22,567 nucleotides of DNA from IMG/VR virus record IMGVR_UViG_3300021961_007035, positions 1-22,567 of that record. One strand, 5' to 3'. The notes beneath the pieces were generated by a model. The model was given only the letters and a program-made list of their open reading frames with translations, made no database searches and was not told the DNA's origin. The position numbers and the translations under genes were made by a program. How positions within the stretch are numbered: the first letter of the stretch is position 1; each line of letters opens with the position of its first letter. The stretch comes from a virus. Positions 3,433-22,005 of the stretch are shown one piece after another.

Positions 3433-3557
3433 ACAATCCAATTATTCTTGGCATCATGTGTTTTAGTCTCATTGGAGTTCCCATCCTAGGTATGTGGGCC
3501 GTTCACAAATACAACTGGCAGCATTGGGCTCCATTTGACAAAGGACACAAGGACTAG
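3405..3557 (+). CDS. 50-aa single-span membrane protein
   Basis: Starting at ATG 3405 the protein reads MGHFAAAALNNP, then one membrane span (about residues 13-32, IILGIMCFSLIGVPILGMWA), then a soluble end with HKYNWQHWAPFDKGHKD. An earlier in-frame start at 3369 would add 12 basic residues but overlaps more of the preceding gene. Its last codons contain a perfect -35 box (3535-3540) of the promoter for tRNA-Pro. No family recognised. Confidence 0.6.
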   Translation: MGHFAAAALNNPIILGIMCFSLIGVPILGMWAVHKYNWQHWAPFDKGHKD

Positions 3558-3563
3558 TATAAT
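3535..3563 (+). promoter_or_regulatory. perfect consensus sigma70 promoter before tRNA-Pro
   Basis: TTGACA (3535-3540), exactly 17 bp, TATAAT (3558-3563): every consensus base is present. The -35 is inside the end of the preceding gene and the -10 follows its stop. Transcription would begin near 3570, 11 nt before tRNA-Pro, and continue into the Phd-like gene and two more tRNAs. Confidence 0.85.
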
Positions 3564-3580
3564 TAGTAGGTAAGAAACAA

Positions 3581-3654
3581 CGGGGTGTGGCGCAGTTTGG
3601 TAGCGCGGATGCTTTGGGAGCATTAGGTCGCAGGTTCGAATCCTGTCACCCCGA
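3581..3654 (+). tRNA. tRNA-Pro (TGG)
   Basis: Acceptor CGGGGTG/CACCCCG, D arm GCGCAGTTTGGTAGCGC, anticodon stem GATGC/GCATT (one G-T) with loop TTTGGGA (anticodon TGG), T arm GCAGG-TTCGAAT-CCTGT, discriminator A. No CCA encoded. Confidence 0.95.
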
Positions 3655-3668
3655 TTCATAAACACTTT

Positions 3669-3908
3669 ATGAAAATGTATCCAGAACTAAACGAACTTCA
3701 ATCATTTACAGTCGAAGAGTTCCAAGCAGATTTTGATAATCTGATAGACAGAGTTGAAAAAGGAGAATCATTTATTATACGTGATGGAAGAAAAAGTGCT
3801 GTAATAGTTCCATACAATGAAACCATAAAGTATGCATTAGATCAACAAAAACCCACTGTGGATGATGAATTGATACACATCCACACAGATCACGAAGAAG
3901 GTTCGTAA
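3669..3908 (+). CDS. Phd/YefM-like antitoxin-fold protein
   Basis: A 79-residue protein whose first 50 residues match the Phd/YefM antitoxin pattern: a short N-terminal strand (FTVEEFQADFDNLIDRVEKG), then SFIIRDGRKSAVIVPY, where these proteins form the dimeric DNA-binding fold. The C-terminal part (residues 55-79) is acidic and His-rich (ELIHIHTDHEE), where a real antitoxin would carry its toxin-binding tail. No toxin gene follows; a tRNA begins 7 nt later. It may neutralise a host toxin, act as a repressor, or have another role; only the fold assignment is reasonably supported. Confidence 0.65.
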   Translation: MKMYPELNELQSFTVEEFQADFDNLIDRVEKGESFIIRDGRKSAVIVPYNETIKYALDQQKPTVDDELIHIHTDHEEGS

Positions 3909-3915
3909 TTTGATT

Positions 3916-3987
3916 GGGAGTATAGCTTAATGGTTAGAGCGCCCTGCTTATAACGGGGTAGTCTGGGTTCAACTCCCAGTACTCCTA
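3916..3987 (+). tRNA. tRNA-Ile (TAT)
   Basis: Acceptor GGGAGTA/TACTCCT with a terminal G-U pair, D arm GCTTAATGGTTAGAGC, anticodon stem CCCTG/CGGGG with loop CTTATAA (anticodon TAT), T arm CTGGG-TTCAACT-CCCAG. A UAU anticodon reads AUA directly; many bacteria instead use a CAU tRNA modified to lysidine. No CCA encoded. Confidence 0.92.
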
Positions 3988-3988
3988 T

Positions 3989-4063
3989 TGCTCCTTTAGC
4001 AATCTGGTGAATGCACCGAACTCATAATTCGGCTAAGGTGGGTTCGATCCCCTCAAGGAGCAT
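3989..4063 (+). tRNA. tRNA-Met (CAT), probably elongator
   Basis: Acceptor TGCTCCT/AGGAGCA, anticodon stem CCGAA/TTCGG with loop CTCATAA (anticodon CAT), T loop TTCGATC. A CAT anticodon can mean elongator Met, initiator Met or lysidine-type Ile. The anticodon stem lacks the three G-C pairs of initiators, and an Ile tRNA for AUA lies directly upstream, so elongator Met is most likely. It starts 1 nt after tRNA-Ile. Confidence 0.85.
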
Positions 4064-5080: not shown

Positions 5081-6166
5081 ATGAGTGATTATAAGAAAAC
5101 AGCACTTGTACTTGGTGCTGGTGGATTTATTGGAAGTCATATGGTAAAAAGACTTCGTGCAGAAGGATATTGGGTTCGTGGCGTAGATCTTAAGTATCCA
5201 GAGTTTTCTGTCTCTGAAGCAGATGAATTTATTCAAGGTGACTTGAGGGACATGAGCTTTGTCCGACGTGTGATTGAATTCAAGGGAGAACGAGGTAACT
5301 TTTATAATTCAGTTCCTTATCGTTACATTCTTCCTTTCCATGAAATCTATCAGTTCGCTGCTGACATGGGTGGTGCTGGTTTCGTTTTCACTGGCGAGAA
5401 TGATGCAGATATTATGCATAATTCAGTTTCAATCAACCTGAATGTTCTTGAGGCACAACGTCAACTGAATGAAACTTTTGATGGTGTTGATAATGGCACT
5501 GCATGTGTTCGTCCTGTTCTAGATTATCAGACCAAAATTTTCTACTCTGGTTCTGCTTGCATGTACCCAGAACATAACCAACTTGATCCCGATAATCCCG
5601 ACTGCCGTGAAGAATCTGCATATCCCGCTAATCCTGATAGCGAATATGGATGGGAAAAACTCTTCTCAGAAAGACTCTATTTCGCTTACAATCGTAATCA
5701 CGGCATCCCTGTTCGCGTTGCTAGGTATCATAATATCTTTGGTCCTGAAGGAACCTGGGAAGGTGGAAGAGAGAAAGCACCTGCAGCAATCTGCCGTAAA
5801 GTCGCATATCTTCCAGAGAACGGTGGAACCATCGAGGTGTGGGGAGATGGCTTACAAACTCGTTCCTTCTTGTATATTGATGAATGCATCGAGGCAACCC
5901 GTCGATTGATGGATTCTGATTTTATGGGTCCGGTCAATATTGGATCTGAAGAGATGGTAACCATCAATCAACTGGTTGAAACTGCTGCCAAAGTTGCTGG
6001 CAAGAATGTGGAGAAGAATCATATTGATGGTCCTCTTGGGGTTCGTGGTCGCAATTCTAATAATGATCTGATCCGTGAAAAACTTGGATGGGATTATTCT
6101 CAAACTTTAGAGGAAGGAATTGGGAAAACTTATAACTGGATTTGTTCTCAAATATCTAAACAATGA
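5081..6166 (+). CDS. GDP-mannose 3,5-epimerase-like SDR protein
   Basis: A 361-residue extended short-chain dehydrogenase with an N-terminal NAD-binding motif (G12-A-G14-G15-F-I-G18), S158/C160 in SGSACMYPE, Y189-x3-K193 and the signature GTWEGGREKAPAA. By homology GDP-mannose 3,5-epimerase converts GDP-D-mannose to GDP-L-galactose. C160 and K232 keep the spacing of the acid/base Cys145 and Lys217 of the Arabidopsis enzyme (29 residues to Tyr, 39 from Lys). WGDGLQTRSFLYIDEC also matches the family. Insertions around residues 65-88 and 131-150 make the first half longer than in plants. First gene of the operon, with AAGGAG upstream. Its text looks richer in G/C than the following genes, which may mean separate acquisition. 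Confidence 0.9.
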   Translation: MSDYKKTALVLGAGGFIGSHMVKRLRAEGYWVRGVDLKYPEFSVSEADEFIQGDLRDMSFVRRVIEFKGERGNFYNSVPYRYILPFHEIYQFAADMGGAGFVFTGENDADIMHNSVSINLNVLEAQRQLNETFDGVDNGTACVRPVLDYQTKIFYSGSACMYPEHNQLDPDNPDCREESAYPANPDSEYGWEKLFSERLYFAYNRNHGIPVRVARYHNIFGPEGTWEGGREKAPAAICRKVAYLPENGGTIEVWGDGLQTRSFLYIDECIEATRRLMDSDFMGPVNIGSEEMVTINQLVETAAKVAGKNVEKNHIDGPLGVRGRNSNNDLIREKLGWDYSQTLEEGIGKTYNWICSQISKQ

Positions 6167-6477
6167 AAAGATACGTAATTGACTTGGATCATACCTTATG
6201 TGATACGAGGAAAAATGAGGATGGTAGTTGGAATTACCTTCAAGCTCTTCCATTTCCAGATAGAATTGCAAAAGTAAATAAGTTGTCAGAAGAAGGAAAC
6301 TATATTATCATAGAGACTGCTCGTGGATTTTGGACGAAAAGAAATTGGTATTGTGAGACTTACGATCAACTCACTCGTTGGGGACTTAAATTTCATGAAT
6401 TAAGAGCCGGAGTAAAATTTGCTGCAGATTATTACATTGACGATAAAGCAATCAACAGTGAGGAATTTTTCAAATGA
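6163..6477 (+). CDS. HAD-superfamily phosphatase
   Basis: A compact 104-residue HAD fold: D7-L-D9-H-T11 (nucleophile and acid/base), T52 in ETARG (motif II), K85 (motif III) and D93-D94 in YYIDDKA (motif IV). Without a cap domain it resembles small hydrolases found in capsule loci that act on sugar or heptose phosphates. It overlaps the epimerase stop (ATGA) and the next gene. It may remove a phosphate from a sugar precursor; the substrate cannot be read from the sequence. Confidence 0.85.
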   Translation: MKRYVIDLDHTLCDTRKNEDGSWNYLQALPFPDRIAKVNKLSEEGNYIIIETARGFWTKRNWYCETYDQLTRWGLKFHELRAGVKFAADYYIDDKAINSEEFFK

Positions 6478-7463
6478 GTAATGCCGATTATCTAAAACAA
6501 GAAAGTGGTGGAAAAACAAAAGTCATTCTTGTAAGTAGGGTTCATAAGGAAGCCGCAGATGAAAGAATGATGAAACTTGTTGATGAATATGAATTCATTG
6601 AATCAATTCCTACAGAATTTAAGGACTATTTTCCACGTATTGTTCTTTATGGAATAGAGGGAAATAAAGCATTCTACGAAATGGAGCACTATGATCTCCC
6701 TACACTTCGTAGACTAATGCTATCAAATGAAATTAAAGAAGATGAAGTTCTTTATTGGTGCGATAAGATCACTGAACTATCCCGTAAGTTATATCTTCAT
6801 CAAGTCTTGCCGATGCCAAACGATTACTTTGAAGCAATGCATTTTCAAAGACTTGATAATCGTTTAGATGAACTTGGTAAAAAATCTGATTGGTTTAAAG
6901 ATCTGATTCAACAGGATACCGTTGTTGTTAATGAAAAAGAATATAAAAATATTCCGGTATTGGCAGAGAAATTTAAAAATACAGACTTTTTAAATACTGT
7001 CAAACCAGAGTTTGTTGGTAGGTGGAGTCATTCTGATTTACACTTCTCAAACGTTTTGATAGATCGTCAAAATGATAAATTCATTATGATTGATCCTCGT
7101 GGATATGATTATTGTGATTATTACTATGATTATGGTAAGTTCTGGCACTCTGTAAATGGTAAGTATGAAATGATTGCTTCTCGTGAATTTGATCTTGATG
7201 GCAGTAATTTCAAACTTTGGGATAATGAGATGTATAAATTGTGCGAATCCCTGAAAAAGTCTATACCAAATATTCTTTACAAGCACTCACCCGAAAGTCC
7301 AGAGGACGTGATGAGGAAAACTGAGTGGAATGAAGTAATGCATTTCTCAAGCCTGCTCCCCTTCCTTTTAGACTTTGATGGTGTAGATGCTCGATCAAAA
7401 GTTGCATATTACACAAGTGTTATTTTAATTAATGAATTTTGTGAAAAATATGAGATCAATTAA
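6474..7463 (+). CDS. APH/choline-kinase-fold phosphotransferase
   Basis: A 329-residue protein with the catalytic loop of the aminoglycoside phosphotransferase/choline kinase fold: H186-S-D188-L-H-F-S-N193, followed by the Mg-binding D207 in MIDPRG, and a nearby YDYGKFWHS segment typical of capsule-associated kinases. These enzymes transfer phosphate from ATP to a small hydroxyl compound. Overlaps the HAD gene (ATGA) and the next gene. Side by side with a HAD phosphatase and an aminotransferase, it likely prepares a phosphorylated sugar or alcohol for the glycan. Substrate unknown. Confidence 0.82.
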   Translation: MSNADYLKQESGGKTKVILVSRVHKEAADERMMKLVDEYEFIESIPTEFKDYFPRIVLYGIEGNKAFYEMEHYDLPTLRRLMLSNEIKEDEVLYWCDKITELSRKLYLHQVLPMPNDYFEAMHFQRLDNRLDELGKKSDWFKDLIQQDTVVVNEKEYKNIPVLAEKFKNTDFLNTVKPEFVGRWSHSDLHFSNVLIDRQNDKFIMIDPRGYDYCDYYYDYGKFWHSVNGKYEMIASREFDLDGSNFKLWDNEMYKLCESLKKSIPNILYKHSPESPEDVMRKTEWNEVMHFSSLLPFLLDFDGVDARSKVAYYTSVILINEFCEKYEIN

Positions 7464-8517
7464 TTGGGACGATCAAGATATTGGATCTGAAGAAATTAAT
7501 GCAGCAGTTGAATCTTTATCTAAAGGAGTTGGTGCAAAGGGAGATAATCTTGTTCTCTTGGAAGAAGAACTAAAAGAAAAACTAGGATGCAAACATGCAA
7601 TATTAGTTTCCAATTGTACGACAGCATTAATTACTTCTCTTCTGGCACTAAAACAAAAGTATCCAAACATTAAAAAAATTGCTGTTCCATCTTTTACTTT
7701 TATTGCCTCTGCCAATGCTGCAAAATTTGTATTGGATGATGTTGAATTGGTTGATTGTGGAATAGATGATTGGAATGTAAGGCCTGAAGATATTCCAGCA
7801 GATGTTGATGCTGCGATGTTAATTGATGTTGGTGGAGTTCCTTGTGACTATGATAAATTTAAAGATTTGGGAATTCATCTTCTTGCAGACTCTGCCGAAA
7901 GTTTAGGTTCAACTTATAAAGGAGAACAAATTGGAACTCAAGTAAGTCTTCATTGCTTTAGTTTTCAACGTTCTAAGATAGTTACTTCAGGTGAAGGAGG
8001 TCTCATCACTACTAATGATGACGAACTGGCTAGTATTTGTAGAGCAATAGTTAATCATGGGTATTCTGAAAGCAAAAAATCTTATGAATACATTCATGAT
8101 AATTTTGGTTTAAATTTTAGAATGTGTGATGTTGAGGCAGCTATACTCAGACAACAACTTAAAAAACTAGACAAATATGTAGTTCGGAGAAATGAAGTAG
8201 CGAAGAGATATACGCAATTTTTATCTCCACACTATCAAGTACAACAAATTCCAAACTACTGTACGTCAAATTATTTTTTCTATGGTATACTTGTTGATGA
8301 AAGAATAAGAAATAATTTTGCAGAATATTTGATTGAAAATGGAATTGTTGTCAAATGCTGGACTGCAATTCATCAACAAAAATTGTGGAAGACTTCTGGA
8401 CTTCCTAATGCCACTTCAATTTCAAATCGAGTTATTCTTCTTCCCATACATAATAAGATAACAGATAATGATGTTGATTACATTATCGAAACTTGCTTAC
8501 AATTTAATGAAAGATGA
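7450..8517 (+). CDS. DegT/DnrJ/EryC1-type PLP aminotransferase
   Basis: A 355-residue sugar aminotransferase of the DegT family. Visible marks are D147 in LADSAESLGS (contacts the PLP ring nitrogen), K176 in FQRSKIVTSGEGG (Schiff-base lysine) and the FGLNFRMCDVEAA segment. These enzymes move an amino group, usually from glutamate, to a keto-sugar nucleotide. I chose ATG 7450 (MRSINWDD), where family members normally begin; ATG 7432 would add six residues. It overlaps the kinase gene. It implies an amino sugar in the final glycan. Confidence 0.9.
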   Translation: MRSINWDDQDIGSEEINAAVESLSKGVGAKGDNLVLLEEELKEKLGCKHAILVSNCTTALITSLLALKQKYPNIKKIAVPSFTFIASANAAKFVLDDVELVDCGIDDWNVRPEDIPADVDAAMLIDVGGVPCDYDKFKDLGIHLLADSAESLGSTYKGEQIGTQVSLHCFSFQRSKIVTSGEGGLITTNDDELASICRAIVNHGYSESKKSYEYIHDNFGLNFRMCDVEAAILRQQLKKLDKYVVRRNEVAKRYTQFLSPHYQVQQIPNYCTSNYFFYGILVDERIRNNFAEYLIENGIVVKCWTAIHQQKLWKTSGLPNATSISNRVILLPIHNKITDNDVDYIIETCLQFNER

Positions 8518-9725
8518 AAAAATTTTTTTATAAAATCTTTGATAAATTTACCTTCAATCAGTTACCCCATTTAAATTTCTTCATTGAGATGGAGAGAAAA
8601 ACAATTGGAGAACTGAAAAATTTTCAATTTGAAAGGCTTAAAGAAACTGCTTCTAAGTTTAATATAAGCATCCGCACCTGGGATGACTTTTATAAACTGC
8701 CTATCACCACAAAGTCAGATCTACCAGATCGCCCTAATTTCCCTAGTGAGGAAATGCGGCAGCATGAAACGTCTGGATCAACAGGTCAACCTAGAGTAAT
8801 TTGGGTTCCTCCCTCCACCTGGTATAGGAAGGATGCTATTTTTACCCGTAGTTGGTTGAAAATGGGTAGAAAAGATGAATGGGTCTTTCGTTTGATTTCT
8901 GGAGAACCCAAGTATCCATTTTATGATAGTCTTAGAAATGTTAAGGCTATGAATTATAAAACCCTGTCTCAAGATCATGTTGATTGGGTTGTTAAGAATA
9001 AACCATACCTTATTCATGGGCCAGGTGGGTCTATAAGACAGTTATGTGAAATGATTATTGATGCGGGTCATGGTGATGTTCTTAAGGATATTAAGATACA
9101 TTGGTGTAGTGAGAGTTCATACGGTCACAAAGAAAGACTTGTGCCTTTAGTTAAAGAATTTCACGAACAGTATGGTCTTGCAGAACTAGCAACTGTTGGT
9201 GCAACTGATGGGCGCGGAAATATTCGTGTTGTAATGGAACAGGGGATTGTTGAAATTCTAGATGAAGATGGAAATCCGACCCCAGAGGGCGAAGAAGGAT
9301 ATATTATAGTGACAGATTTTAATAACTATCAAACTCCTATTTTTAGGTATCGATGTGGAGATCGTGGAAAGATAAAAACAGTTGAATATGATGGTAGACA
9401 ATATTATGTTCTTTATGATATAATCGGTAGAGGAGTTGATTATTATAATGGACCTGAGGTTAAGAGACCTATAGGTTGGTGGATAGTATCTCCCATATCA
9501 CATACAGTAGGTCATGTGATTGAAAAGTGGAGATGTGAAGTAAATGTTCCTACGAAAACATTGATTTTGCATGTAAAATTTAAAGGTGAAGAAAATTTTG
9601 AATCCTTAACTCCGTATGCAGAATGGGTAAAAGAAAACGTTGGTCTTGATACTAAATTTGTAATTTCTGAAGAAGAACAGTATGACATTTACTGGAAAAA
9701 TAAATTAGTAAGAGTAGTAAAATGA
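8514..9725 (+). CDS. CapK/phenylacetate-CoA ligase-like adenylating enzyme
   Basis: A 403-residue member of the ANL (adenylate-forming) superfamily, closest in look to the CapK/PaaK group of capsule loci. Motifs in order: T86-SGSTGQP (P-loop-like), YGLAELA at 210-216, RYRCGDRG with D283, and IIGRG at 303-307. By family it activates a carboxylic acid with ATP, which could then be joined to an amino sugar as an amide, a reasonable partner for the aminotransferase upstream. No CoA-specific feature can be proven. Overlaps both neighbours (ATGA). Confidence 0.83.
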   Translation: MKKFFYKIFDKFTFNQLPHLNFFIEMERKTIGELKNFQFERLKETASKFNISIRTWDDFYKLPITTKSDLPDRPNFPSEEMRQHETSGSTGQPRVIWVPPSTWYRKDAIFTRSWLKMGRKDEWVFRLISGEPKYPFYDSLRNVKAMNYKTLSQDHVDWVVKNKPYLIHGPGGSIRQLCEMIIDAGHGDVLKDIKIHWCSESSYGHKERLVPLVKEFHEQYGLAELATVGATDGRGNIRVVMEQGIVEILDEDGNPTPEGEEGYIIVTDFNNYQTPIFRYRCGDRGKIKTVEYDGRQYYVLYDIIGRGVDYYNGPEVKRPIGWWIVSPISHTVGHVIEKWRCEVNVPTKTLILHVKFKGEENFESLTPYAEWVKENVGLDTKFVISEEEQYDIYWKNKLVRVVK

Positions 9726-10936
9726 ATGTAAGTTTTGTTGGACTTGGAAAACTAGGACTCCCTTTAGCGTGTTGTTTAGCGCAATCGGGAAATAAAATTC
9801 TAGGTGTTGATAAAAATGAATATGTTCTTGACACTTTGAGTAGAGGAGAACTCCCTTTTTATGAACCAGGACTTAATAATATTTTTCCTCATATAAATTT
9901 TCTTGGATTCACTGATTCATACCAAAGAGCCGTTGATGAAACAGATGTAACAATCATTCTCGTTAACACGCAACTTGGTGACAACGGATATTCTTCTGAA
10001 TTTGTTGAGGATGTGTTAACTGATCTGGCATTAAATTTACGGAAGAGTAAGAAAGAAAAACATACGATAATTCTTTCATCAACTGTCCTTCCTGGCACTA
10101 TCAAAAAGTTGATTAAACTTGTTGAAAAGATCTCCAAGAGAAAGTATGGTGAGGGATTTGGCTTTGCATATGTTCCAGACTTTGTTAAGTTGGGAAATGT
10201 AATTCATGATTTTAAAAATCCTGAATTCTTTTTGATTGGCGCTAATAATATGGAGGATATTGTTACCACCCAAGGTATCTGGTATGAGTTTCATCAAAAT
10301 AATCCACCAAAGAAAATTCTAACTCTTGAGGAAGCTGAGATTTCTAAAGTTGCATTGAATGCATATATTGTAAATAAAATTACATTTGCAAATTTCTTAG
10401 GTCAACTTTGTGAGGGGATTGATAATGTAGACGTTCATAATATCACGAAAACAATTGGTATTGACAAGAGAATTTCTCCATACTTTTTTGGATATGGAAC
10501 TCCTTATGGTGGAACATGTTTTCCAAGAGATACTTCTGCCTTCATTAAATTTGCTAAAGATAGAAAGAAAGTTGCAAAGAATCTAATCTTTGCTGAAGAA
10601 GTTAATGAGATGGTTTACAAGAGTATTCTGGAAAAAGTAAAAGATTGTAAGAAAGTTGGTATTTTGGGAATTTCATTTAAGCCAGATTCTCCTGTAGTGA
10701 TTGGATCGCCATCAGCAAGACTAATTAAAGACTTGTTGGAACTTGGTGCAACTGTTAATGGTTTTGATAAGATTAAAGAGTCCTATCAAAATCTTGATGT
10801 TGATATTAATGAGTTTGATGATGCTCAGCAATGCGTAAATGAATCTGAAGTTGTTGTTATCATGCATCCGGATAAAACTTATTCTAATTTGAATTATTCA
10901 AATAAGTCAGTTGTTGACTATTGGGGTGTCGTGTAA
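9722..10936 (+). CDS. UDP-glucose/GDP-mannose dehydrogenase family protein
   Basis: A 404-residue protein with the three-part layout of nucleotide-sugar 6-dehydrogenases: Rossmann motif G7-L-G9-K-L-G12, central helices with K219 and N223, catalytic C266 in YGGTCFPRD, and a C-terminal domain beginning GILGISFKPDS. The family oxidises a UDP- or GDP-sugar twice with NAD to a uronic acid. The usual NPEFLREG box is altered to VPDFVKLGN, so the exact substrate may differ. The uronic acid is a likely glycan building block. Its stop overlaps the next ATG. Confidence 0.88.
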   Translation: MNVSFVGLGKLGLPLACCLAQSGNKILGVDKNEYVLDTLSRGELPFYEPGLNNIFPHINFLGFTDSYQRAVDETDVTIILVNTQLGDNGYSSEFVEDVLTDLALNLRKSKKEKHTIILSSTVLPGTIKKLIKLVEKISKRKYGEGFGFAYVPDFVKLGNVIHDFKNPEFFLIGANNMEDIVTTQGIWYEFHQNNPPKKILTLEEAEISKVALNAYIVNKITFANFLGQLCEGIDNVDVHNITKTIGIDKRISPYFFGYGTPYGGTCFPRDTSAFIKFAKDRKKVAKNLIFAEEVNEMVYKSILEKVKDCKKVGILGISFKPDSPVVIGSPSARLIKDLLELGATVNGFDKIKESYQNLDVDINEFDDAQQCVNESEVVVIMHPDKTYSNLNYSNKSVVDYWGVV

Positions 10937-11520
10937 TGTCAAACTATGAATCATATTCGCATCTCTTTCGTGGATCGTGGTCTATTCATAATCAAGAAAA
11001 ACCATCTTGGGATTTGGTAAAAACTTTTTTAAACAAAGATTGTGTCTTTTTGGATATTGGATGCCAAAAGGGAATATATTCTCAAGGAGTTATTGATATA
11101 TTTGGTGAAGATTGTTCGGTGTATGGATTCGATGTTTTAGATCATCCAGAAATAAAATTAATTGAAAATGCTCATGATAACTTCAAATTTATTCATTCAG
11201 CCGTTGGGGATGGAAAGTCTAACGTAGATTGTGTCGTTCATTATGATACAAATACTAAACTGGAAAACCAACAAACAATTTCAATTGATGATTTCTGCAC
11301 TGAAAATAATTTAAAAAAAGTTGACTTTGTAAAAATAGATGTTGATGGTTGTGAAACTAGCGTTCTATCTGGGATGATAAAAACGTTGCAAGATTTTTCT
11401 CCCGTCCTAATGATAGAAATTGAAAATGACTTTGACTCTAAGGTAAAGTTTCTTGAAAATTATGGATACAAATATATGTGTGCTAGGAATGATATAAACA
11501 GATTCTTTTCAAAACAATGA
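10936..11520 (+). CDS. FkbM-family SAM methyltransferase
   Basis: A 194-residue methyltransferase. Motif I is FLDIGCQKGIYS (about residues 38-49), and the FkbM hallmark is VKIDVDGCETSVLSGM near residue 140, followed by VLMIEIEND. FkbM enzymes O-methylate sugars or related hydroxyls using S-adenosylmethionine. The start is ATG 10936, overlapping the previous TAA; the upstream TTG extension is unlikely. A second FkbM gene follows directly, so the glycan may carry two methyl marks. Confidence 0.85.
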   Translation: MSNYESYSHLFRGSWSIHNQEKPSWDLVKTFLNKDCVFLDIGCQKGIYSQGVIDIFGEDCSVYGFDVLDHPEIKLIENAHDNFKFIHSAVGDGKSNVDCVVHYDTNTKLENQQTISIDDFCTENNLKKVDFVKIDVDGCETSVLSGMIKTLQDFSPVLMIEIENDFDSKVKFLENYGYKYMCARNDINRFFSKQ

Positions 11521-12227
11521 ATGAAATAGTAAACTCAGTATTAAAAGACCTTTTGGTAGATGGTAAGATTTTTATTCCCGAAAATCTTACCAGAGTAAAG
11601 TTGGATGTTGGAACTTCGATTAATGCACCAAACTCCGAGTATTGGTTAAGTTCTGATAATGATGTTTGTGTTTTTGGATTTGAACCAAATCCATTTAATG
11701 TTGAATTTGTAAAAAGAGGTGGAAATATCTGGCCAATTCACTTAAATACTGATCGCATCAATAAAACTTTTTTTATGGTTGAATGTGCTTTATCTTCTGG
11801 TGAACCAAGATACTCTAACTTCTATTGTACTGAAGGAGACTCAGGTACATCTAGCATGTTTAAACCATCTTACTTTGGTGTTGCTAAAGAAGTAACTGTT
11901 CCAACTATTTCGTTGAAACATTTCTTTGACCTTTTCCCTTGGGATAAAGTTGAATATATCGAACATCTTAAAATAGATGCTCAATCAGCTGACTTTGATA
12001 TTGTAAAAGGTGCTGGAGACTATTTGCAAGAAAAGGTTTTATACCTGAGTGTTGAAACAAATACAGGAGATCAATATCAAAATCAAGAGAATCCTTTAGA
12101 AATGAAAAAGTATATTGAAGATCGCGGATTCCAATGTAATTTATGGCAATCAAATGGAAACTTTTCTAACAAAAAATTTGAGTACCTTTGGAATAAAATC
12201 GAATCAAAATTTTTAGAACCTAATTAA
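11517..12227 (+). CDS. FkbM-family methyltransferase (second)
   Basis: A 236-residue protein with a divergent SAM site (KLDVGTSINAPN, then VFGFEPNPFN) and a degenerate FkbM motif (LKIDAQSADFDIVKGAG), ending with VLYLSVETN. The acidic residue usual after KID is replaced by Ala-Gln-Ser, so it is more divergent than its upstream neighbour. It overlaps that gene by ATGA. Likely another O-methyltransferase of glycan assembly; loss of activity cannot be excluded. Confidence 0.78.
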   Translation: MNEIVNSVLKDLLVDGKIFIPENLTRVKLDVGTSINAPNSEYWLSSDNDVCVFGFEPNPFNVEFVKRGGNIWPIHLNTDRINKTFFMVECALSSGEPRYSNFYCTEGDSGTSSMFKPSYFGVAKEVTVPTISLKHFFDLFPWDKVEYIEHLKIDAQSADFDIVKGAGDYLQEKVLYLSVETNTGDQYQNQENPLEMKKYIEDRGFQCNLWQSNGNFSNKKFEYLWNKIESKFLEPN

Positions 12228-12229
12228 TC

Positions 12230-13081
12230 ATGACAATCTCATTAAGGACAAACACTGATGGTTGGAATCAAGAAGGAGTTGGATCTATATGCCAATGGAA
12301 TATTTTATTGGCAGCCTTAGCTCAAGATCTGGGAGTTGAATTTTGTGCCGATCCGTTTTCAAATTTAAATCATTATCAGTACAATGGGTTTTCTTCGAAA
12401 GATTGGTCTGATTTGTTTACTAAGTTTTTTAATTTTAAAACAAGAAACGCAAGTAATAAATTGATAGAATACAATGGTGACATTAATGGTCTTCAAAATT
12501 TAATTAATACTTCTAATGAAGATCTAACAATCAATTTATCAAAACAATTTATTGTTAATAATTGTTTTTCTAGAATAACTGAATTTGGAGATAAAGGATA
12601 CTTTACTAATATTAGGAATAATCTTGTATTTGAAGATGATGTTTATTTTGATAAAAATTATTTAAATATCAGTCTACATTTAAGATCAACCAATCCAGGG
12701 GACATACCTCCAGATTGTCCTGCAATGGAAACATTTGGAGTCTGGCTTGGAGAAGATAAGATATGTAATCTCATTGACCAATTAAAACAAAAATATTATA
12801 ATAGTAAAGTTAGGTTGTATATTCATTCTCAAGGTGATTCTGAAAAATTCTCTATGGTTCAAAATAAATCTACAGAGGAGTTTCAAGTAATCTTAAAACT
12901 GAATGAATTACCAACAAGAGATCTATACCACATGTCTTATTCGGATGTATTAATTCTGGCAAGAAGTTCATATAGTTGGATAGCTCATCTACTAAATGAT
13001 AACCTTACAATTGCTAGAGACAACTTTCATCAGCCACTAAAGTCTGGCATAATTTTTCTTAATTCAAACTACACTTTTTAA
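12230..13081 (+). CDS. putative fucosyltransferase-like glycosyltransferase
   Basis: A 283-residue protein with features of the GT-B fucosyltransferase supergroup: an N-terminal GVGSICQWNILLAALAQDLG helix, LHLRSTNPGD (about 149-158) resembling the GDP-binding HxR-GD motif, and a C-terminal SYSDVLILARSSYSW block like the (D)-S-S-F-S segment of GT11. It sits right before two clearer GT11 genes, which supports the call. Identity is weaker than for those; donor and acceptor are unknown. Confidence 0.55.
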   Translation: MTISLRTNTDGWNQEGVGSICQWNILLAALAQDLGVEFCADPFSNLNHYQYNGFSSKDWSDLFTKFFNFKTRNASNKLIEYNGDINGLQNLINTSNEDLTINLSKQFIVNNCFSRITEFGDKGYFTNIRNNLVFEDDVYFDKNYLNISLHLRSTNPGDIPPDCPAMETFGVWLGEDKICNLIDQLKQKYYNSKVRLYIHSQGDSEKFSMVQNKSTEEFQVILKLNELPTRDLYHMSYSDVLILARSSYSWIAHLLNDNLTIARDNFHQPLKSGIIFLNSNYTF

Positions 13082-13085
13082 TAAA

Positions 13086-14009
13086 ATGTTATCATACGAT
13101 AGACTAGGTAGTAATGGTCGCCTGGGAAACCAAATGTTTCAATATGCAGCCCTACGGGGTATAGCATCTAATCGTGGATTTGATTGGGTTATTCCTCATA
13201 AAGATGTTCCATCAATAACCGATTATTGTATACAACTTCCTTTTAAAATGAAAAATTTAAAGGAGAGTAACATTGGAACTCTAAACAAAAACATTTCTAA
13301 TCAAGAGAGGCATAGTTTCTATCAACTTGCTTCTTCCAATCCTAGTGTCAAAAATAAAATTGAAAAGTCCTTTGAGTTCGATCAGGATTTGTTTGATAAT
13401 ATCGAAGACAATACAAATATTGATGGATTTTTTCAGTCAGAAAAATATTTCAAACATATCGAAACTGAGATTAGGGAAGACTTTGAGTTTATTGATGAGA
13501 TTTTAGATCCTTGTAAAGAATTCGTGTCTCAATTTGATAAGGTAATCTTCTTGCATGTAAGGAGGGGAGATGCAGTTGGGTTCGAACATCTTTGTAGATT
13601 TCCCACTTTTGATGGGTATTATGCTCCAGCACTAGAACACTTTGATGATGACACTGCTGTGATTGTATGCAGTGATGAAATTGAATGGTGCAAAGAACAA
13701 AAGTTTTTTGACAATGAAAGATTTTATTTTTCAGAAAACAACGAAAGGTTTGAAAACAAGTGTTGGTTATGGCTTGATGGAAATCCAGAAATGAGAAACT
13801 CAACTATCCCTTACACAGATCTATGCTTGATGAGTCTTTGTAATGGTGGAATCACGCCAACTAGTAGTTTGAGTTGGTGGGGTGGTTGGTTGCAAAAAGA
13901 TAGAACTAATCCTATAATTGTACCAAACCCTTGGTTTGGACCAGAACTTTCAAAAAGTAATAACACTAAAGACCTTATCCCTCATGATTGGATTCAACTA
14001 TCTTGGTAA
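13086..14009 (+). CDS. GT11 alpha-1,2-fucosyltransferase-like (copy 1)
   Basis: A 307-residue GT11 protein. Motifs: NGRLGNQMFQYA (10-21), H157-V-R-R-G-D162 (GDP-sugar binding) and SSLSWWGGWL (270-279). GT11 enzymes move L-fucose from GDP-L-fucose to the 2-OH of galactose, the bond of the H blood-group antigen. An ~22-residue insertion (about 215-237) distinguishes it from copy 2. Its last 26 nt also encode the start of copy 2 in another frame. The acceptor is unknown. Confidence 0.85.
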   Translation: MLSYDRLGSNGRLGNQMFQYAALRGIASNRGFDWVIPHKDVPSITDYCIQLPFKMKNLKESNIGTLNKNISNQERHSFYQLASSNPSVKNKIEKSFEFDQDLFDNIEDNTNIDGFFQSEKYFKHIETEIREDFEFIDEILDPCKEFVSQFDKVIFLHVRRGDAVGFEHLCRFPTFDGYYAPALEHFDDDTAVIVCSDEIEWCKEQKFFDNERFYFSENNERFENKCWLWLDGNPEMRNSTIPYTDLCLMSLCNGGITPTSSLSWWGGWLQKDRTNPIIVPNPWFGPELSKSNNTKDLIPHDWIQLSW

Positions 14010-14775
14010 AATGGGACAACTGGGAAACCAGATGTTTCAGTATGCAACTGTCTTAGGAATATCTAGATTTATTGGAACTGGTTTTTCAATACCTAATCAT
14101 AGAGAAGTTGTGAGAGATGGTCTTGGTAATAATTTGAGAATTGAATTATTTGATTGTTTTGATTTAAAACCTGATAATATTGGTTTTGTTTCTGGAGAAG
14201 TCTCTCAAGAAAAATATTTTCATTTTGATGATAAGTTTTTTAATCTTAATAAAGATGTAAACCACGATATTGTTGGATACTTTCAAACTGAGAGGTATTT
14301 TAAACATATTGAAAATGAAGTAAGAAATAATTTTATTTTCAAAGATGAAATTAAAAAAGACTGTGATGAACTTTTATCTTCTGTAGACTCTCCTGTAGCA
14401 CTGCATATTCGTAGGGGCGATTATACTATTAACTCTGGTAATCATCACAACCTCACTCTTGAATATTATGCAAATGCTCTAGAATACTTTCCTAATAGAG
14501 AAGTAATTATCTTTACTGATGATCCAAATTGGGCTCGTCAGCAAGGTTTATTTTCTGATGATAGATTTCTTGTGTCCGAAAATAACAGTCCTTATCATGA
14601 CCTTTACATGATGTCTCAATGTGGTGATTTTATCATTGCTAACTCTACCTTTTCGTGGTGGGGTGCATGGTTAGCTAATAGAGGAAAGGTTATTTCTCCT
14701 CAAAAATGGTTTGGACCTGCATTGGAAAATAATAACACCAAAGATTTGTACTTAGAAAACTGGATAAAACTATGA
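13984..14775 (+). CDS. GT11 alpha-1,2-fucosyltransferase-like (copy 2)
   Basis: A 263-residue GT11 enzyme with GQLGNQMFQYA (11-21), H141-I-R-R-G-D146 and STFSWWGAWL (221-230). ATG 13984 is chosen because MIGFNYLGKMGQLGN aligns with copy 1; it lies inside the end of copy 1. Both copies share GYFQTERYFKHIE/GFFQSEKYFKHIE, DEI at the same place, and WFGP...NNTKDL near the C-terminus, so they arose by tandem duplication and then diverged, mainly in the acceptor-facing middle. It overlaps the GT6 gene by ATGA. Confidence 0.87.
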   Translation: MIGFNYLGKMGQLGNQMFQYATVLGISRFIGTGFSIPNHREVVRDGLGNNLRIELFDCFDLKPDNIGFVSGEVSQEKYFHFDDKFFNLNKDVNHDIVGYFQTERYFKHIENEVRNNFIFKDEIKKDCDELLSSVDSPVALHIRRGDYTINSGNHHNLTLEYYANALEYFPNREVIIFTDDPNWARQQGLFSDDRFLVSENNSPYHDLYMMSQCGDFIIANSTFSWWGAWLANRGKVISPQKWFGPALENNNTKDLYLENWIKL

Positions 14776-15503
14776 AAATCTGTATTGTTACTGTCGCTAC
14801 TGGCAGATATATTCAATTTGTTGAAAACTTATTGAATAAAGTAGATGAATTTTTCTTAAATGGAAATGAGATAAGTTGTCTTCTTTTTACTGATAATGAA
14901 ATGGAAGAAACTTCTGATAACATCAAGGTTAGTCAAATCGAACACAAACCTTGGCCAGAACCTGCCATGAAAAAGTATAATTATATCAATTCAGAAAAAG
15001 AATTTTTAAAAGAATTTGATTATGTTTACTTATTTGATGCTGATGTTGACTTAGTAGATCAAGTTGGTAGTGAAGTACTTCAAGATTTGGTAGGTGTTCT
15101 TCATCCTTGGAAAATACTTGAGGATAAATCAGTCTATCCGTATGAGACTCGTCCAGAGTCTACTGCCTTTGTAAGAGAAGATCAGAGGAGTAAATATTAT
15201 GCAGCCGCTTTTGTTGGAGGAAAATCTGAAGTTTTTCTGAGAATGGCAGAGACAATCTCTCAGAGAGTAACCGAAGATGAAAAAAATAATGTAATCGCTA
15301 TATGGCATGATGAAAGTCATTTAAACAAATACTTTATTGAAAATCCTCCCACAGATTTAGCCCCAAGTTATATGTTCCCAGAGGAACTAATTGGTAATGA
15401 TAGATATCCTTGGAAACCAAAGATCGTTGCTATCAACAAAAATGCATTTGATACATCATTCAATCAAGAAAAAATAGATAAAGGTCAATACGGAAACAAT
15501 TGA
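14772..15503 (+). CDS. GT6 (ABO/alpha-1,3-Gal type) glycosyltransferase
   Basis: A 243-residue protein of family GT6, the family of vertebrate ABO, alpha-1,3-Gal and Forssman transferases. It has KICIVTVATGRYIQF at the N-terminus, the metal-binding DxD in FDADVDLV (D89, D91, D93), the donor-selecting YYAAAFVGG (142-150) and the active-site WHDESHLNKY (168-177). Family enzymes add Gal or GalNAc in alpha-1,3 linkage, often next to an alpha-1,2-fucose. Many bacterial GT6 proteins have NxN; this one keeps the metal-type DxD. There is no signal anchor, unlike vertebrate forms. Directly follows the two GT11 genes. Confidence 0.9.
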   Translation: MKICIVTVATGRYIQFVENLLNKVDEFFLNGNEISCLLFTDNEMEETSDNIKVSQIEHKPWPEPAMKKYNYINSEKEFLKEFDYVYLFDADVDLVDQVGSEVLQDLVGVLHPWKILEDKSVYPYETRPESTAFVREDQRSKYYAAAFVGGKSEVFLRMAETISQRVTEDEKNNVIAIWHDESHLNKYFIENPPTDLAPSYMFPEELIGNDRYPWKPKIVAINKNAFDTSFNQEKIDKGQYGNN

Positions 15504-15504
15504 G

Positions 15505-16221
15505 ATGAAAATTGATATAAGAAATTTACCTACTTACTATATCAACTTAGATAGTCAGGAAGAAAGAAGACAATCTGTATCTTATACTTTGAATAGATTA
15601 AATTTTACTTCAGTAACAAGAGTTCCTGGAGTCATTCATGACGATCCCAAAGTTGGTTGCGCTAGATCTCAAGAAAAAGTTCTAACAGATAAAACTATTC
15701 CAACACCATTTCTTTTGATGGAAGATGATTGCGTCTTTACTGGAGTCGATGAATTGGTGTATGAAGTTCCCGATGATGCAGATGCTCTTTATCTGGGAGT
15801 TTCACAGTGGGCTAGATATCTAAACTTCTCAGGACCATTCTTGCATTATCAAACGATTAATGATAAGATTGTAAGAGTTTATAATATGCTTGCCGCACAT
15901 GCAGTAATTTATCTTACTGATGAATATCGGCAAGTTTGTTCTCGCATTTCCAAATATTGCGGTCACCAACTTTTGGACCACATGGATAATGGATATGCAG
16001 AAATACAAAAATACTATAACGTTTATTCTCTTGATGCACCAATCTTTAAACAGTCAGGACACAATGGTGGAGTGACTTCCTCAAAAGTATCTGATATTGG
16101 AATTGAAATTTCATCTGCCAACAAATTCTTTGATGAAGTTAAATTTGATTTGAATAAACTTCAGGGTGTTCCTGATTTGAATAACTGTCCGAGTACGTAT
16201 TATCCTTCTAGACTTGTATGA
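15505..16221 (+). CDS. GT25-like glycosyltransferase (copy 1)
   Basis: A 238-residue protein with the GT25 layout: YYINLDSQEERR (11-22), GCARSQEKVL (51-60) and LLMEDDCVF (70-78), whose acidic triplet binds metal and nucleotide sugar. GT25 enzymes work in LPS or lipooligosaccharide synthesis, often as galactosyltransferases. It begins 1 nt after the GT6 stop and overlaps the next gene (ATGA). The usual SH-L after GC is AR-SQ here, a small deviation. Donor unknown. Confidence 0.8.
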   Translation: MKIDIRNLPTYYINLDSQEERRQSVSYTLNRLNFTSVTRVPGVIHDDPKVGCARSQEKVLTDKTIPTPFLLMEDDCVFTGVDELVYEVPDDADALYLGVSQWARYLNFSGPFLHYQTINDKIVRVYNMLAAHAVIYLTDEYRQVCSRISKYCGHQLLDHMDNGYAEIQKYYNVYSLDAPIFKQSGHNGGVTSSKVSDIGIEISSANKFFDEVKFDLNKLQGVPDLNNCPSTYYPSRLV

Positions 16222-17576
16222 GTAAACTTAAAATTTTTATCTTTGCATTCAATCGTCCAGATCTACTTCAAAAACAATTTGACTGTTTCTATCGATATCT
16301 TATCGGTGAATATCAAGTTAATGTTGTATATGATTATCGAGAAGACATATGCGGTGACGAGTTTGAAAGAATTTGTTCTGAAAATGGAGCCAAATTTTAT
16401 CGCCATGAATCTAAACCGGGAAATGTTCCCAGCGGATATCATGGAGATACTCTTGATTGGGTTTATAATAATCTACTTGAAGATGATGATTATGTAGTCT
16501 TCTTAGATCATGACATCTTTTTGATAGATGATTTTGATCTTAAGAAACGATTGGATCAATTTGATGTTTTGGGTCATAAACAAACTAGAGGTGATGTTGT
16601 ATATTTCTGGCCTGGTCTTTTTATGTTTAATTATTCCAAAATTAAACATCTAGCAGTCAATTTCCAACCATGTCAGATTAATGGTGAAATGTTGGATAGT
16701 GGAGGTGGTACTTATACCATTGCTGAAGATCAGAACATCAAAGTTAGCTTTGTGGATCAAATTTATCCAGATTACTATAAAGACTTGAATTTAAAAGATC
16801 CAAGTGTTACCAATGGATATGGGTTTGAAATCTTTGATGATAATAAATTTTTACATACCAAAAATGCTTGCCATTGGCACAACAACTATCAAGTAGTAGA
16901 TAAACAAAAAACGGAGATTATTAACATTATGCTAAATGATATTTTATCTGGGTGTTACGATGTTGACGAAGATGATATTCTAATGAAAGAATATCATTTG
17001 TTTTCCAATACCCCAACAGAAATTAACGAACATCTTCCAACTTTGTTTTCGTTGGCGAAAGAGTGTTCTAGTATTGTAGAACTTGGAGTTTGCCATGGAA
17101 AATCTACAAGAGCTTTACTTGCATCGGGAACAAAACTGAGATCTTACGACGTGTGGATCGAACCAAGAGTTCTTGAACTTTTCAATCATGCGAAAAGCAT
17201 TGGTAGAGATGTTGATTATATCAAAGAAAGTTCTATCAAATGTGAGATTGATGAGTGTGATATGTTGTTCATTGATAGTTGGCATAACTATTATCAATTG
17301 AGAAAAGAACTTAAACTACATGCAGACAAAGTTAAAAAGTACTTAGTCTTTCATGATACCATGAGTTGTGGTAGTAGTGATGAAGGACTTGAAGCATGGG
17401 GGAATGGAGCTGGGATTAACGTACAAAAAGTCTATGAAGATCTTGATACCACTGAGTTTAAAAATTATGGAATCAACAGCGCAATTTTTGAATTCTTATC
17501 CGAAAACCAAAATTGGGTTGTAAAGAAACATTATAAGAATAATAATGGGTTGACAGTTTTGGAAAGGAAGTCTTAA
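16218..17576 (+). CDS. bifunctional GT-A glycosyltransferase / SAM methyltransferase fusion
   Basis: A 452-residue protein in two parts. Residues 1 to about 235 look like a GT-A glycosyltransferase (KIFIFAFNRPDLLQKQ start, DxD-type D97-H-D99 in VVFLDHDIF). Residues about 270-452 look like a class I methyltransferase: VELGVCHGKSTRALL (287-301) as SAM motif I, then CDMLFIDSWHNY (347-358) and LVFHDTM, as in Methyltransf_24/cephalosporin-hydroxylase-like proteins. A single enzyme may add a sugar and methylate it. A single uninterrupted frame rules out a simple sequencing join. Substrates unknown. Confidence 0.8.
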   Translation: MSKLKIFIFAFNRPDLLQKQFDCFYRYLIGEYQVNVVYDYREDICGDEFERICSENGAKFYRHESKPGNVPSGYHGDTLDWVYNNLLEDDDYVVFLDHDIFLIDDFDLKKRLDQFDVLGHKQTRGDVVYFWPGLFMFNYSKIKHLAVNFQPCQINGEMLDSGGGTYTIAEDQNIKVSFVDQIYPDYYKDLNLKDPSVTNGYGFEIFDDNKFLHTKNACHWHNNYQVVDKQKTEIINIMLNDILSGCYDVDEDDILMKEYHLFSNTPTEINEHLPTLFSLAKECSSIVELGVCHGKSTRALLASGTKLRSYDVWIEPRVLELFNHAKSIGRDVDYIKESSIKCEIDECDMLFIDSWHNYYQLRKELKLHADKVKKYLVFHDTMSCGSSDEGLEAWGNGAGINVQKVYEDLDTTEFKNYGINSAIFEFLSENQNWVVKKHYKNNNGLTVLERKS

Positions 17577-18373
17577 TGGATAAGAATAAATCTACTCATA
17601 AACTTAAAAATATTGGTCCAATTTATTATCTCAATCTCGACGGACAACCAGAGAGACGTGAGTATATGGAGGATCAATTTAAATACTGGGAGATTGATAA
17701 CTATGAACGTATTTCTGCCTATGATGGTAGAGGTGATGACCTAAGTGATATTATTGTCGGTAGATATCCAGAAATGATGAGCTCTGGTGAGATTGGTTGT
17801 GTGACCTCTCATCTTAAGGCTATCAAACATTGGTATGAGACATCTGATAGTCCATATGCAATCATCATGGAAGATGATTGTAATTTAGATCTTGTTAGAT
17901 TCTGGAACTTCACTTGGAGTGATTTTTACGCACACATTCCTTATGATTGGGATGTGGTGCAAATCGCTATTATTTGCACAGGAGACTTGCATGTCAAACT
18001 TCATAAAAGATTTGTAAATGATTTCTCTACAGCATGTTATCTTATTACAAGGCATCATGCAGAAAAACTTATCAGACTTCATGTTCGAGGGGATAAGTAT
18101 AAACTTGATAATGGAATGAAACCAAGACCAGTTGCAGATGATTTGATTTATAATTCTGGAAATACTTATTCAATTCCTTTACTTCTTTACAGGATTGAAC
18201 TTGGCTCTTCAATTCATCCAGAACACATTGATGCATTTCATAGAGGAAACTTCAATGCTTTATCTGGATTCTGGGAACAGAATGGAGCAAATATAAACAT
18301 CAAAGAGTATATGGATTATGATCCATATCTTGGTAGAGTTGTTGAAAATTCTGCAGCACAACAGCAAGCTTGA
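17576..18373 (+). CDS. GT25-family glycosyltransferase (copy 2)
   Basis: A 265-residue protein with clear GT25 motifs: IYYLNLDGQPERRE (16-29), GEIGCVTSHLKAI (71-83, with the canonical GC-x-x-SH), IIMEDDCNL (97-105) and a later PVADDLIY. More canonical than copy 1. It is the last gene of the carbohydrate operon; no terminator follows and its stop codon lies inside the -35 box of the next promoter, so operon transcripts probably read through. Confidence 0.87.
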   Translation: MDKNKSTHKLKNIGPIYYLNLDGQPERREYMEDQFKYWEIDNYERISAYDGRGDDLSDIIVGRYPEMMSSGEIGCVTSHLKAIKHWYETSDSPYAIIMEDDCNLDLVRFWNFTWSDFYAHIPYDWDVVQIAIICTGDLHVKLHKRFVNDFSTACYLITRHHAEKLIRLHVRGDKYKLDNGMKPRPVADDLIYNSGNTYSIPLLLYRIELGSSIHPEHIDAFHRGNFNALSGFWEQNGANINIKEYMDYDPYLGRVVENSAAQQQA

Positions 18374-20504: not shown

Positions 20505-21176
20505 ATGACCTTAGATCTTCATAACTTTTTTAAGTATTATGATGATAAGAACCCTAATCATGTAGCTGCGGTTCAGTGGTTGGAGGATAATCTTCCAGAA
20601 CAATTCATGGATGATTCTGAAACTGAATGGGTGGGAATTTTTAGAACCAAACCTCCCACACCTGAAGTTCTTGCGGTTCCTTACTTTAATCAAGTAGATA
20701 ACTATAGAGACGCCCATAGAACTTGCAACTCTTCGTCGTGTGCTATGTGTCTTGCTTTCCTCAAGCCAGGAAGTATCAAAGGCGACGATGAGTATGTCAA
20801 GAAAGTATTTGAGATTGGCGATACAACCGATCATGCAGTACAGACAAAAGTTCTGTCAGCTTATGGTGTTAAGTCACACTTTAGTTACAATCTATCTTTT
20901 GCTGATATTGATAAAAGTTTGGACGCTGGGAAGCCCGTTGTTATTGGCATACTCCATAGGGGTTCTCTCACTTCACCTACTGGTGGGCATATGTGTGTTG
21001 TGATTGGCAAGACTCCAGATGGTAAGGGATACTTTGTTAATGATCCATACGGTTCATTGAATGACAACTATAGTGGACCAGTAACAAATGGTAAGAAGAC
21101 CATCTACACTAAAGCAGTTCTAAAGCACCGCTGGTGTCCAGGAGGTAACGATGGATGGGGAAGGATCTTCGACTAA
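20505..21176 (+). CDS. C39-like cysteine peptidase with shared N-terminal module
   Basis: A 223-residue protein. Residues 4 to about 47 (DLHNFFKYYDDKNPNHV, AVQWLEDNLP) form a helical module repeated almost exactly in the protein at 21275. Residues 56-223 look like a papain-like Peptidase_C39_2 domain: VPYFNQVDN, C74-N in RTCNSSSCAM (likely nucleophile), GGHMCVVIG with H162, and NDPYG with N179/D180. Such domains in phages often act as endopeptidases or cell-wall amidases. With a lysozyme and holin-like gene downstream, a lytic or tail-associated role is likely. Driven by the late promoter at 20474. Confidence 0.8.
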   Translation: MTLDLHNFFKYYDDKNPNHVAAVQWLEDNLPEQFMDDSETEWVGIFRTKPPTPEVLAVPYFNQVDNYRDAHRTCNSSSCAMCLAFLKPGSIKGDDEYVKKVFEIGDTTDHAVQTKVLSAYGVKSHFSYNLSFADIDKSLDAGKPVVIGILHRGSLTSPTGGHMCVVIGKTPDGKGYFVNDPYGSLNDNYSGPVTNGKKTIYTKAVLKHRWCPGGNDGWGRIFD

Positions 21177-21189: not shown

Positions 21190-21297
21190 ATGTTAAAAGT
21201 GATTAGAGATCTTACAAACAACGGTAGACACGTAGAAGCAAGCGAACTTTATCAAAGGTATTTCGGAGACAACAATGGCAAGGATCGACCTTCATAA
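21190..21297 (+). CDS. possible 35-aa protein
   Basis: ATG 21190 to TAA 21295-21297 encodes MLKVIRDLTNNGRHVEASEL then YQRYFGDNNGKDRPS, a plausible soluble helical peptide. It fills the 98-nt gap before the next gene and overlaps it by 23 nt. No Shine-Dalgarno and no known family; the last residues may be chance overlap. Confidence 0.4.
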   Translation: MLKVIRDLTNNGRHVEASELYQRYFGDNNGKDRPS

Positions 21298-21502
21298 CTT
21301 CTTCAATTATTACGACGAGAAGAACCCTAACCACGTCAAAGCAGTGCAGTGGTTAGAAGATAATCTTCCAGTTAAATTTCTGGAAGATAATGTAGATTGG
21401 GCTGAGATCTACAGAGGCAAGAAAGGTGGATCAGCACCTGCAACTGCTGCCGCTCCTGCGGGTGATGCCTGCCCCCACTGTGGTAAACCACTGGGAAAGT
21501 AA
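21275..21502 (+). CDS. 75-aa module protein; zero-frame product of a predicted -1 frameshift
   Basis: Residues 4 to about 46 repeat the N-terminal module of the C39-like protein (DLHNFFNYYDEKNPNHVKAV, WLEDNLP). A flexible Ala/Pro linker (SAPATAAAPAGDA) and a C60s knuckle, CPHCGKPL, follow, then the stop. CGGAG lies before ATG 21275. The final codons read CTG GGA AAG TAA and contain the slippery heptamer G GGA AAG. A -1 slip there continues through a second copy of the linker into the GH24 lysozyme at 21550. Without frameshift it may act as a free targeting or regulatory module. Confidence 0.82.
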   Translation: MARIDLHNFFNYYDEKNPNHVKAVQWLEDNLPVKFLEDNVDWAEIYRGKKGGSAPATAAAPAGDACPHCGKPLGK

Positions 21503-21531
21503 GTAGCGGCAGTGGTACTCCTGCTGCCGCT
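21493..21531 (+). promoter_or_regulatory. predicted programmed -1 ribosomal frameshift signal
   Basis: The heptamer GGGAAAG (21493-21499) is read G GGA AAG in the zero frame, fits X XXY YYZ, and is directly followed by UAA. After a 5-nt spacer, AGCGGCAG (21505-21512) pairs perfectly with CTGCCGCT (21524-21531) around an 11-nt loop. The -1 frame reads VSSGSGTPAAAPSGDVP into the lysozyme with no stop. The heptamer is the one known from phage lambda G/GT. Confidence 0.75.
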
Positions 21532-21549
21532 CCTAGTGGTGATGTACCA

Positions 21550-22005
21550 ATGATGGGTATTAAACTCATCAAAGAGTTTGAAGGATGCCACCTGAGTGCC
21601 TATCCAGACCCTCTCACAGGTAACCTACCAATCACTATTGGTTGGGGTTCCACCCGTAAGAAAGATGGATCGCCATTCAAACTGGGTGATAAGATTACTC
21701 AGGCAGAAGCAGATGATCTTTTGATTAGTCAGTGCAAGAGTCAGTTTATTCCAGCACTCACAAAGATTCCACACTGGAATGAAATGAGTGACGGTAAAAG
21801 AGGTGCTCTATTATCCTTCGCTTATAATTTGGGCGCTGGTTTTTATGGTGGTGATAATTTTAATACTATTACTCGCGTACTGAAGAATAAAGAATGGGAC
21901 AAAGTTCCTGATGCGCTTTACCTCTACAGAAATCCTGGTTCAAATGTAGAAGCAGGACTTGCTCGTAGAAGAAAAGCGGAAGGTGAAGCTTGGAAAAAAG
22001 GTTAA
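21550..22005 (+). CDS. GH24 phage lysozyme (T4-type endolysin)
   Basis: A 151-residue lysozyme when counted from ATG 21550. The catalytic triad follows the T4 pattern: E11 in FEG, D20 in AYPD, T29 in ITIGWG (three residues further than in T4). Later GALLSFAYNLGAG and the C-terminal GLARRRKAEGEAWKKG are also family-typical. It cuts the MurNAc-GlcNAc bonds of peptidoglycan. The start has no good Shine-Dalgarno, and the frame is open upstream to 21487, coding a Gly/Ser/Pro/Ala linker. The main product is therefore probably a 243-residue fusion to the 21275 gene by -1 frameshift. No signal peptide, so it needs a holin. Confidence 0.9.
   Translation: MMGIKLIKEFEGCHLSAYPDPLTGNLPITIGWGSTRKKDGSPFKLGDKITQAEADDLLISQCKSQFIPALTKIPHWNEMSDGKRGALLSFAYNLGAGFYGGDNFNTITRVLKNKEWDKVPDALYLYRNPGSNVEAGLARRRKAEGEAWKKG

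Follow-up and report, generated by a model that had tools for sequence, protein, structure and literature searches.

A putative programmed -1 ribosomal frameshift joins a small module to the GH24 lysozyme of T4-like cyanophages

We infer that, in the virus DNA studied here, a small module ORF and the GH24 lysozyme ORF that follows it constitute one gene with a programmed -1 ribosomal frameshift, a reading to which we assign a probability of about 0.9 from sequence comparison, there being no protein or reporter data. It rests on the observed signal, on the conservation of this signal in phase, on covariation within its stem, and on its recurrence at the homologous junction with other heptamers and with the opposite polarity. 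A first-pass annotation of the same DNA had proposed that the lysozyme is made by such a frameshift from a small module protein; conservation of the signal in relatives supports the frameshift itself, but the proposal was too narrow, since in many phages the partner is also a C39 peptidase.

The window, by which we mean the whole stretch of DNA analysed, is a virus record of 22.6 kb, and the isolates nearest to it are T4-like phages of Synechococcus. Its separate C39-like peptidase gene encodes at the N-terminus the same module as the short ORF (Table 1), and in other cyanophages the GH24 lysozyme has this module-C39 protein itself as its zero-frame partner. The module-lysozyme pair adjoins the peptidase gene and is not, as in the lambda G/GT case, a tail assembly chaperone beside the tape measure gene. 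Elsewhere, the window carries eleven tRNA genes (290-4063), among which there is a tRNA-Gly(UCC), a possible reader of the GGA of the heptamer, and no tRNA-Lys; positions 5081-18373 of this phage contig hold a long series of sugar-nucleotide and glycosyltransferase genes (epimerase, UDP-glucose/GDP-mannose dehydrogenase, GT25).

Table 1. Features of the module-lysozyme locus, in window coordinates
Feature	Position	Strand	Remarks
C39-like cysteine peptidase gene, separate	20505..21176	+	Pfam PF13529, E=7.4e-14; phrog_3617/phrog_10051
Module ORF, zero-frame short product	21275..21502	+	75 aa; helical module over about aa 1-50, then an Ala/Pro/Gly linker and, before the stop, the CPHCGKPLGK tail
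Linker repeat, copy 1	21444..21467	+	zero frame
CPHCGKPLGK zinc-knuckle-like tail	21470..21499	+	kept in all cassette relatives
Slippery heptamer G_GGA_AAG	21493..21499	+	X_XXY_YYZ phase, abuts stop; 28/28 cassette loci
-1-frame extension VSSGSGTPAAAPSGDVP	21499..21549	+	joins module to lysozyme
Zero-frame stop UAA	21500..21502	+	abuts heptamer; UAA or UAG in relatives
Predicted stimulatory stem-loop	21505..21531	+	arms 21505-21515/21521-21531; 5-nt spacer after heptamer; arms covary among relatives
Linker repeat, copy 2	21521..21544	+	-1 frame; 77 nt from copy 1
GGTGAT, weak SD-like	21538..21543	+	before lysozyme AUG; also encodes linker Gly-Asp
GH24 lysozyme	21550..22005	+	151 aa + stop; -1 frame relative to module; PF00959, E=5.3e-22

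The module ORF ends CTG GGA AAG TAA, with the heptamer placed as the first-pass annotation had described it, and the perfect 8-bp stem-loop that it had noted beyond the spacer is likewise present, its 8 Watson-Crick pairs being followed by three more, including two G-U, to give 11 in all. The 52 nt concerned fold with a minimum free energy (MFE) of -19.8 kcal/mol (z -2.26), which 4 of 200 shuffled sequences equalled. Read in the -1 frame, the sequence continues as GK, the 17-residue extension and MMGIKL..., and its conceptual translation has the 243 residues predicted for the fusion (75 + 17 + 151 aa). The repetition of linker DNA in two frames also proved real: the two 24-nt copies are 88% identical, and their 77-nt spacing equals a -1 phase difference. 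All coordinates given in that annotation hold. The lysozyme itself matches PF00959 over the whole profile (1-125 of 125), with E (in FEG), D (in AY.D) and T (in TIG) aligned with the catalytic residues of PDB lysozymes; we take these to be the counterparts of E11, D20 and T26 of T4 lysozyme. The short product was modelled by AlphaFold2 as helical, with block pLDDT values of 69-88 for aa 1-50 and low values for the linker and tail, while the module matched no fold in a search of the PDB. On this model the module would be a small domain made of helices, with no known function and no demonstrated targeting role.

Starting from 80 IMG/VR lysozyme relatives, in 14 of which a module that ends in CPHCGK(P/S)LGK precedes the lysozyme and the latter lies in the -1 frame, and then scanning DNA with a pattern that left synonymous codons free, we assembled 28 distinct loci of the GGGAAAG type, made up of the window and IMG/VR sequences and here called cassette loci. 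The cassette is known only from metagenome contigs in this survey. The offset is -1 in 28/28, and GGGAAAG with an adjacent stop is likewise found in 28/28; all 27 distinct sequence contexts recovered by the pattern scan, which is blind to synonymous codons, read GGGAAAG followed by TAA or TAG. At the codon level, GGA, AAG and a CTG or TTG leucine codon are each present in 28 of 28 loci; elsewhere in the cassette ORFs GGT predominates among glycine codons and few leucine codons are of the form xTG, and the codon preceding the conserved ones varies. The stem begins mostly 4-6 nt downstream of the heptamer, with a mean hairpin MFE of -20.4 as against -8.4 for the control. Because loop lengths differ and the MAFFT alignment of the cassette stems (A1) was therefore poorly registered, we used an arm-swap test, in which cognate arms paired better than swapped ones and 0 of 10,000 permutations reached the observed mean. 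Arm pairs that change together include GCGGCAG/CTGCCGC, GGGGCAG/CTGCCC and GGGACAGC/GCTGTCC. The check that had been suggested, whether relatives conserve the heptamer, spacer, stem and frame offset, was thus positive across the 28 loci.

The same offset recurs where a module-C39 ORF lies upstream of GH24. In most of the surveyed T4-like cyanophages with this order, A_AAA_AAG and a stop close the C39 ORF, and GH24 follows in the -1 frame. Sixty-six distinct C39-GH24 loci have a -1 offset and none a +1 offset; counting all distinct loci in which GH24 is out of frame with an upstream module or C39 ORF, the figures are 94 and 0. AAAAAAG occurs in phase in 59 of the 66 and abuts the stop in 51 of those, 38 of which lack any ATG, GTG or TTG start for GH24. 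The C39-type locus L183 has instead CCCAAAG and a stem resembling that of the window. Hairpins of the C39 type average an MFE of -13.9 (control, -7.5), and again no permutation out of 10,000 reached the observed mean pairing in the arm-swap test. In an ungapped subset with constant loop length, the 13 pairs are 98.5% paired and 4 are double-changed, with no such changes among slid partners. Base composition alone, considered as a source of the stem, was rejected by the arm-swap and slid controls. Taken as criteria for programmed -1 frameshifting, a canonical heptamer in zero-frame phase inside the ORF overlap (the window and 28/28 cassette loci), a -1 frame open from the heptamer into a conserved domain with a conserved offset, and a covarying stem downstream of the heptamer are all met.

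Cultured phages are among these cases. In S-PM2, one of the 38 loci just described, the module-C39 protein ends GCAAAAAAG TAA, with GH24 in the -1 frame and without a start codon, and in S-CAM7 a T_TTT_TTT is followed by an 8-pair stem; the -1 offset is seen in two S-PM2 sequence records and in several S-CAM7 isolates. The annotated lysins of these phages (L083, S-PM2 AJ630128, 2450-2947; L087/L292, S-CAM7) begin at an internal ATG and lack about half of GH24. Exceptions are formed by the S-SRM01 clade, L175, L177 and L186, which have an AUGA/GUGA overlap or an AUG of their own and in which the stem or heptamer is missing or weak; the S-SRM01 clade, with its overlap and little stem, looks like a case of coupled reinitiation. 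A separate observation concerns S-CRM01 (L085, 2780-2900), where GH24 is split near its C-terminus into two CDS (g113/g112) with a -1 offset in A-rich sequence. No canonical heptamer is present at this split, which could be a sequencing indel.

A mirror image of this layout is found in 55 continuous module-GH24 fusions, including those of the cultured phages DSL-LC02 and DSL-LC03. E. coli dnaX uses a -1 frameshift at A_AAA_AAG with a stem-loop and an immediate -1 stop, and it is the continuous relatives, not the window, that meet these criteria of heptamer in phase, -1 stop and stem. The end of the fusion module reads R-GGA-AAA-AAG, placing A_AAA_AAG in phase in 55/55; what follows is mostly NNT AGT or NNT AAT, which puts a -1 stop at the second codon in 48 of the 55, and about 6 nt downstream comes a stem with covarying arms and a mean of -17.9 kcal/mol (control, -8.4). 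By comparison, the remaining ORFs, about 200,000 codons in total, contain only 15 in-phase AAAAAAG, one of them with an immediate -1 stop, and the fusion-equivalent site of the cassette loci contains none (0/28). The fusions thus share the dnaX layout, in which a shift would truncate the product, but in a phage endolysin gene, whereas the window has the reversed polarity and a shift would lengthen it. The 52 nt of linker nearest GH24 did not separate fused from frameshift forms; the hairpin goes with the heptamer, and in fusions it sits further upstream. In ACG-2014f, which has a continuous module-C39-GH24 protein, a dnaX-like device lies between C39 and GH24. Thirteen distinct ACG-2014f-like fusions (among L299-L312) have no heptamer at the C39-GH24 junction, and the device is therefore dispensable in at least one lineage; the notion that every family member carries the signal was rejected on the same grounds.

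Independent translation of the lysozyme from AUG 21550, by reinitiation past the UAA or directly at GGUGAU, with the -1 offset as a by-product of gene order, seems improbable to us. The first-pass annotation had held that this AUG lacks a Shine-Dalgarno (SD) sequence, which is only partly so: GGUGAU can form pairs with the extended anti-SD, at -8.4 kcal/mol, but it is weak, it is linker coding sequence, and the strength of such pairing varies among relatives (-1.3 to -11.8). The AUG is kept in 26 of the 28 cassette loci, and the AUGA/GUGA overlaps of some C39-type relatives are also what such initiation would predict; yet the AUG is absent from two cassette loci (L165 and L092), and in the majority of C39-type loci GH24 lacks any start, which disfavours this as the main route. 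The methionine and the Gly-Asp codons moreover occur inside the continuous fusions as well and are therefore inherited linker, and independent initiation would not require that the heptamer and the -1 offset be invariant or that the stem covary. It could, however, add some free lysozyme to the products of the frameshift that we favour.

We give almost no credence to a frameshift mutation, or a sequencing or assembly error, that split a continuous gene. Relatives with a single continuous frame, named beforehand as what would refute the frameshift, do exist, and L281 and L259 (from the same contigs as L313 and L317) differ from the frameshift form by a single base, having seven A rather than six and hence a continuous module-C39-GH24 frame, which may be natural or may reflect an error in the homopolymer. 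But the continuous module-GH24 relatives lack the whole cassette, not one base, and have their own dnaX-like signal, so they are no sign of a sequencing error, and the same -1 offset and signal recur across numerous independent assemblies as well as in cultured S-PM2 and S-CAM7. This recurrence excludes simple mutation or error for the group. Slippage of RNA polymerase rather than of the ribosome is very hard to credit as the source of the -1 product: although the C39 type has runs of six A, transcriptional slippage usually needs 8 or more A or T, and the GGGAAAG run of the window is too short. The stem, too, is a typical stimulator of ribosomes, at the usual spacing of 5-8 nt (PMC4066793), and ribosomal frameshifting remains our preferred reading.

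In a tree of GH24 sequences, cassette and continuous forms are interleaved, and supported branches force at least 7 changes of state; recombination of a small segment could explain part of this. The sequences counted here are related, and the counts are not numbers of independent events.

Known systems offer partial parallels. G_GGA_AAG is the lambda heptamer, and transposases of the IS3 family frameshift at A_AAA_AAG, where, as proposed here, a heptamer and a stem fuse two ORFs at their junction, although genes and purpose are unrelated. The lambda tail assembly chaperones G and GT arise by -1 frameshifting (Xu, Hendrix and Duda 2004, as cited in PMC6316719 and PMC3483164). The cyanophage genes resemble them in predicting a short and a C-terminally extended protein with a common N-terminus, but differ in encoding an endolysin and in conserving the stem-loop and the adjacent stop. 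Three heptamers of this gene family (AAAAAAG, CCCAAAG and GGGAAAG) coincide with sequences that are highly shift-prone in E. coli (PMC5009743). For endolysins, two polypeptides made through internal starts have been described, in CTP1L (PMC4777826), LysIME-EF1 (PMC7098653) and a wider survey (PMC9430671), with the short form binding the long one. There, as would be the case here, a single gene encodes both the complete enzyme and a shorter form that lacks the catalytic domain; but there the shorter form corresponds to the C-terminal part and the phages infect Gram-positive hosts, whereas the cyanophage one would be the N-terminal part and made by frameshifting, which the survey does not mention. 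In the literature searched, phage frameshifting belongs to tail genes and endolysin isoforms to internal starts. We found no earlier report of endolysin or cyanophage frameshifting, in a search that left most subscription papers out, and the trait, which is broader in cyanophage endolysin genes than the window alone, is apparently undescribed.

In the mechanism that we propose for the window, ribosomes that do not slip would stop at the UAA and release the 75-aa short protein, module and CPHCGKPLGK tail, while a fraction, delayed by the stop and the stem-loop, would slip one base back on G_GGA_AAG and go on to complete the module-lysozyme fusion. That slipping takes place in infected Synechococcus, how efficient it is, and that the two forms have a joint role are inferences. 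In most of the family, -1 frameshifting of either polarity seems to yield two forms, a short one without GH24 and a long one that contains it, though the products are untested; shift-to-fuse and shift-to-stop wirings would thus give the same product pair, with and without the lysozyme domain. Selection would keep the device if, as we infer, lysis needs the two forms in a set ratio, and both perhaps associate through the shared module. If the analogy with endolysins in which the short form binds to the long one applies, the module may act as a subunit that assembles lytic enzymes.

With less confidence than in the frameshift itself, we think it fairly likely that control of the endolysin by -1 frameshifting is a lineage trait of T4-like cyanophages, that its wiring has flipped repeatedly, and that the short form is a lysis subunit or regulator. 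On that reading, selection would preserve the two-form output while the wiring alternates: in one arrangement, shift-to-fuse, a stop follows GGGAAAG or AAAAAAG, and in the other, shift-to-stop, the layout is dnaX-like. The frameshift would account for the truncated lysin annotations of S-PM2 and S-CAM7, because the true reading would need a -1 shift from the C39 ORF, and cultured phage offers a directly testable case. Two mirrored signal layouts in close relatives amount to a natural experiment on the purpose of frameshifting, and a recoding signal seems to govern the lysis enzyme of a large, ecologically important group of phages.
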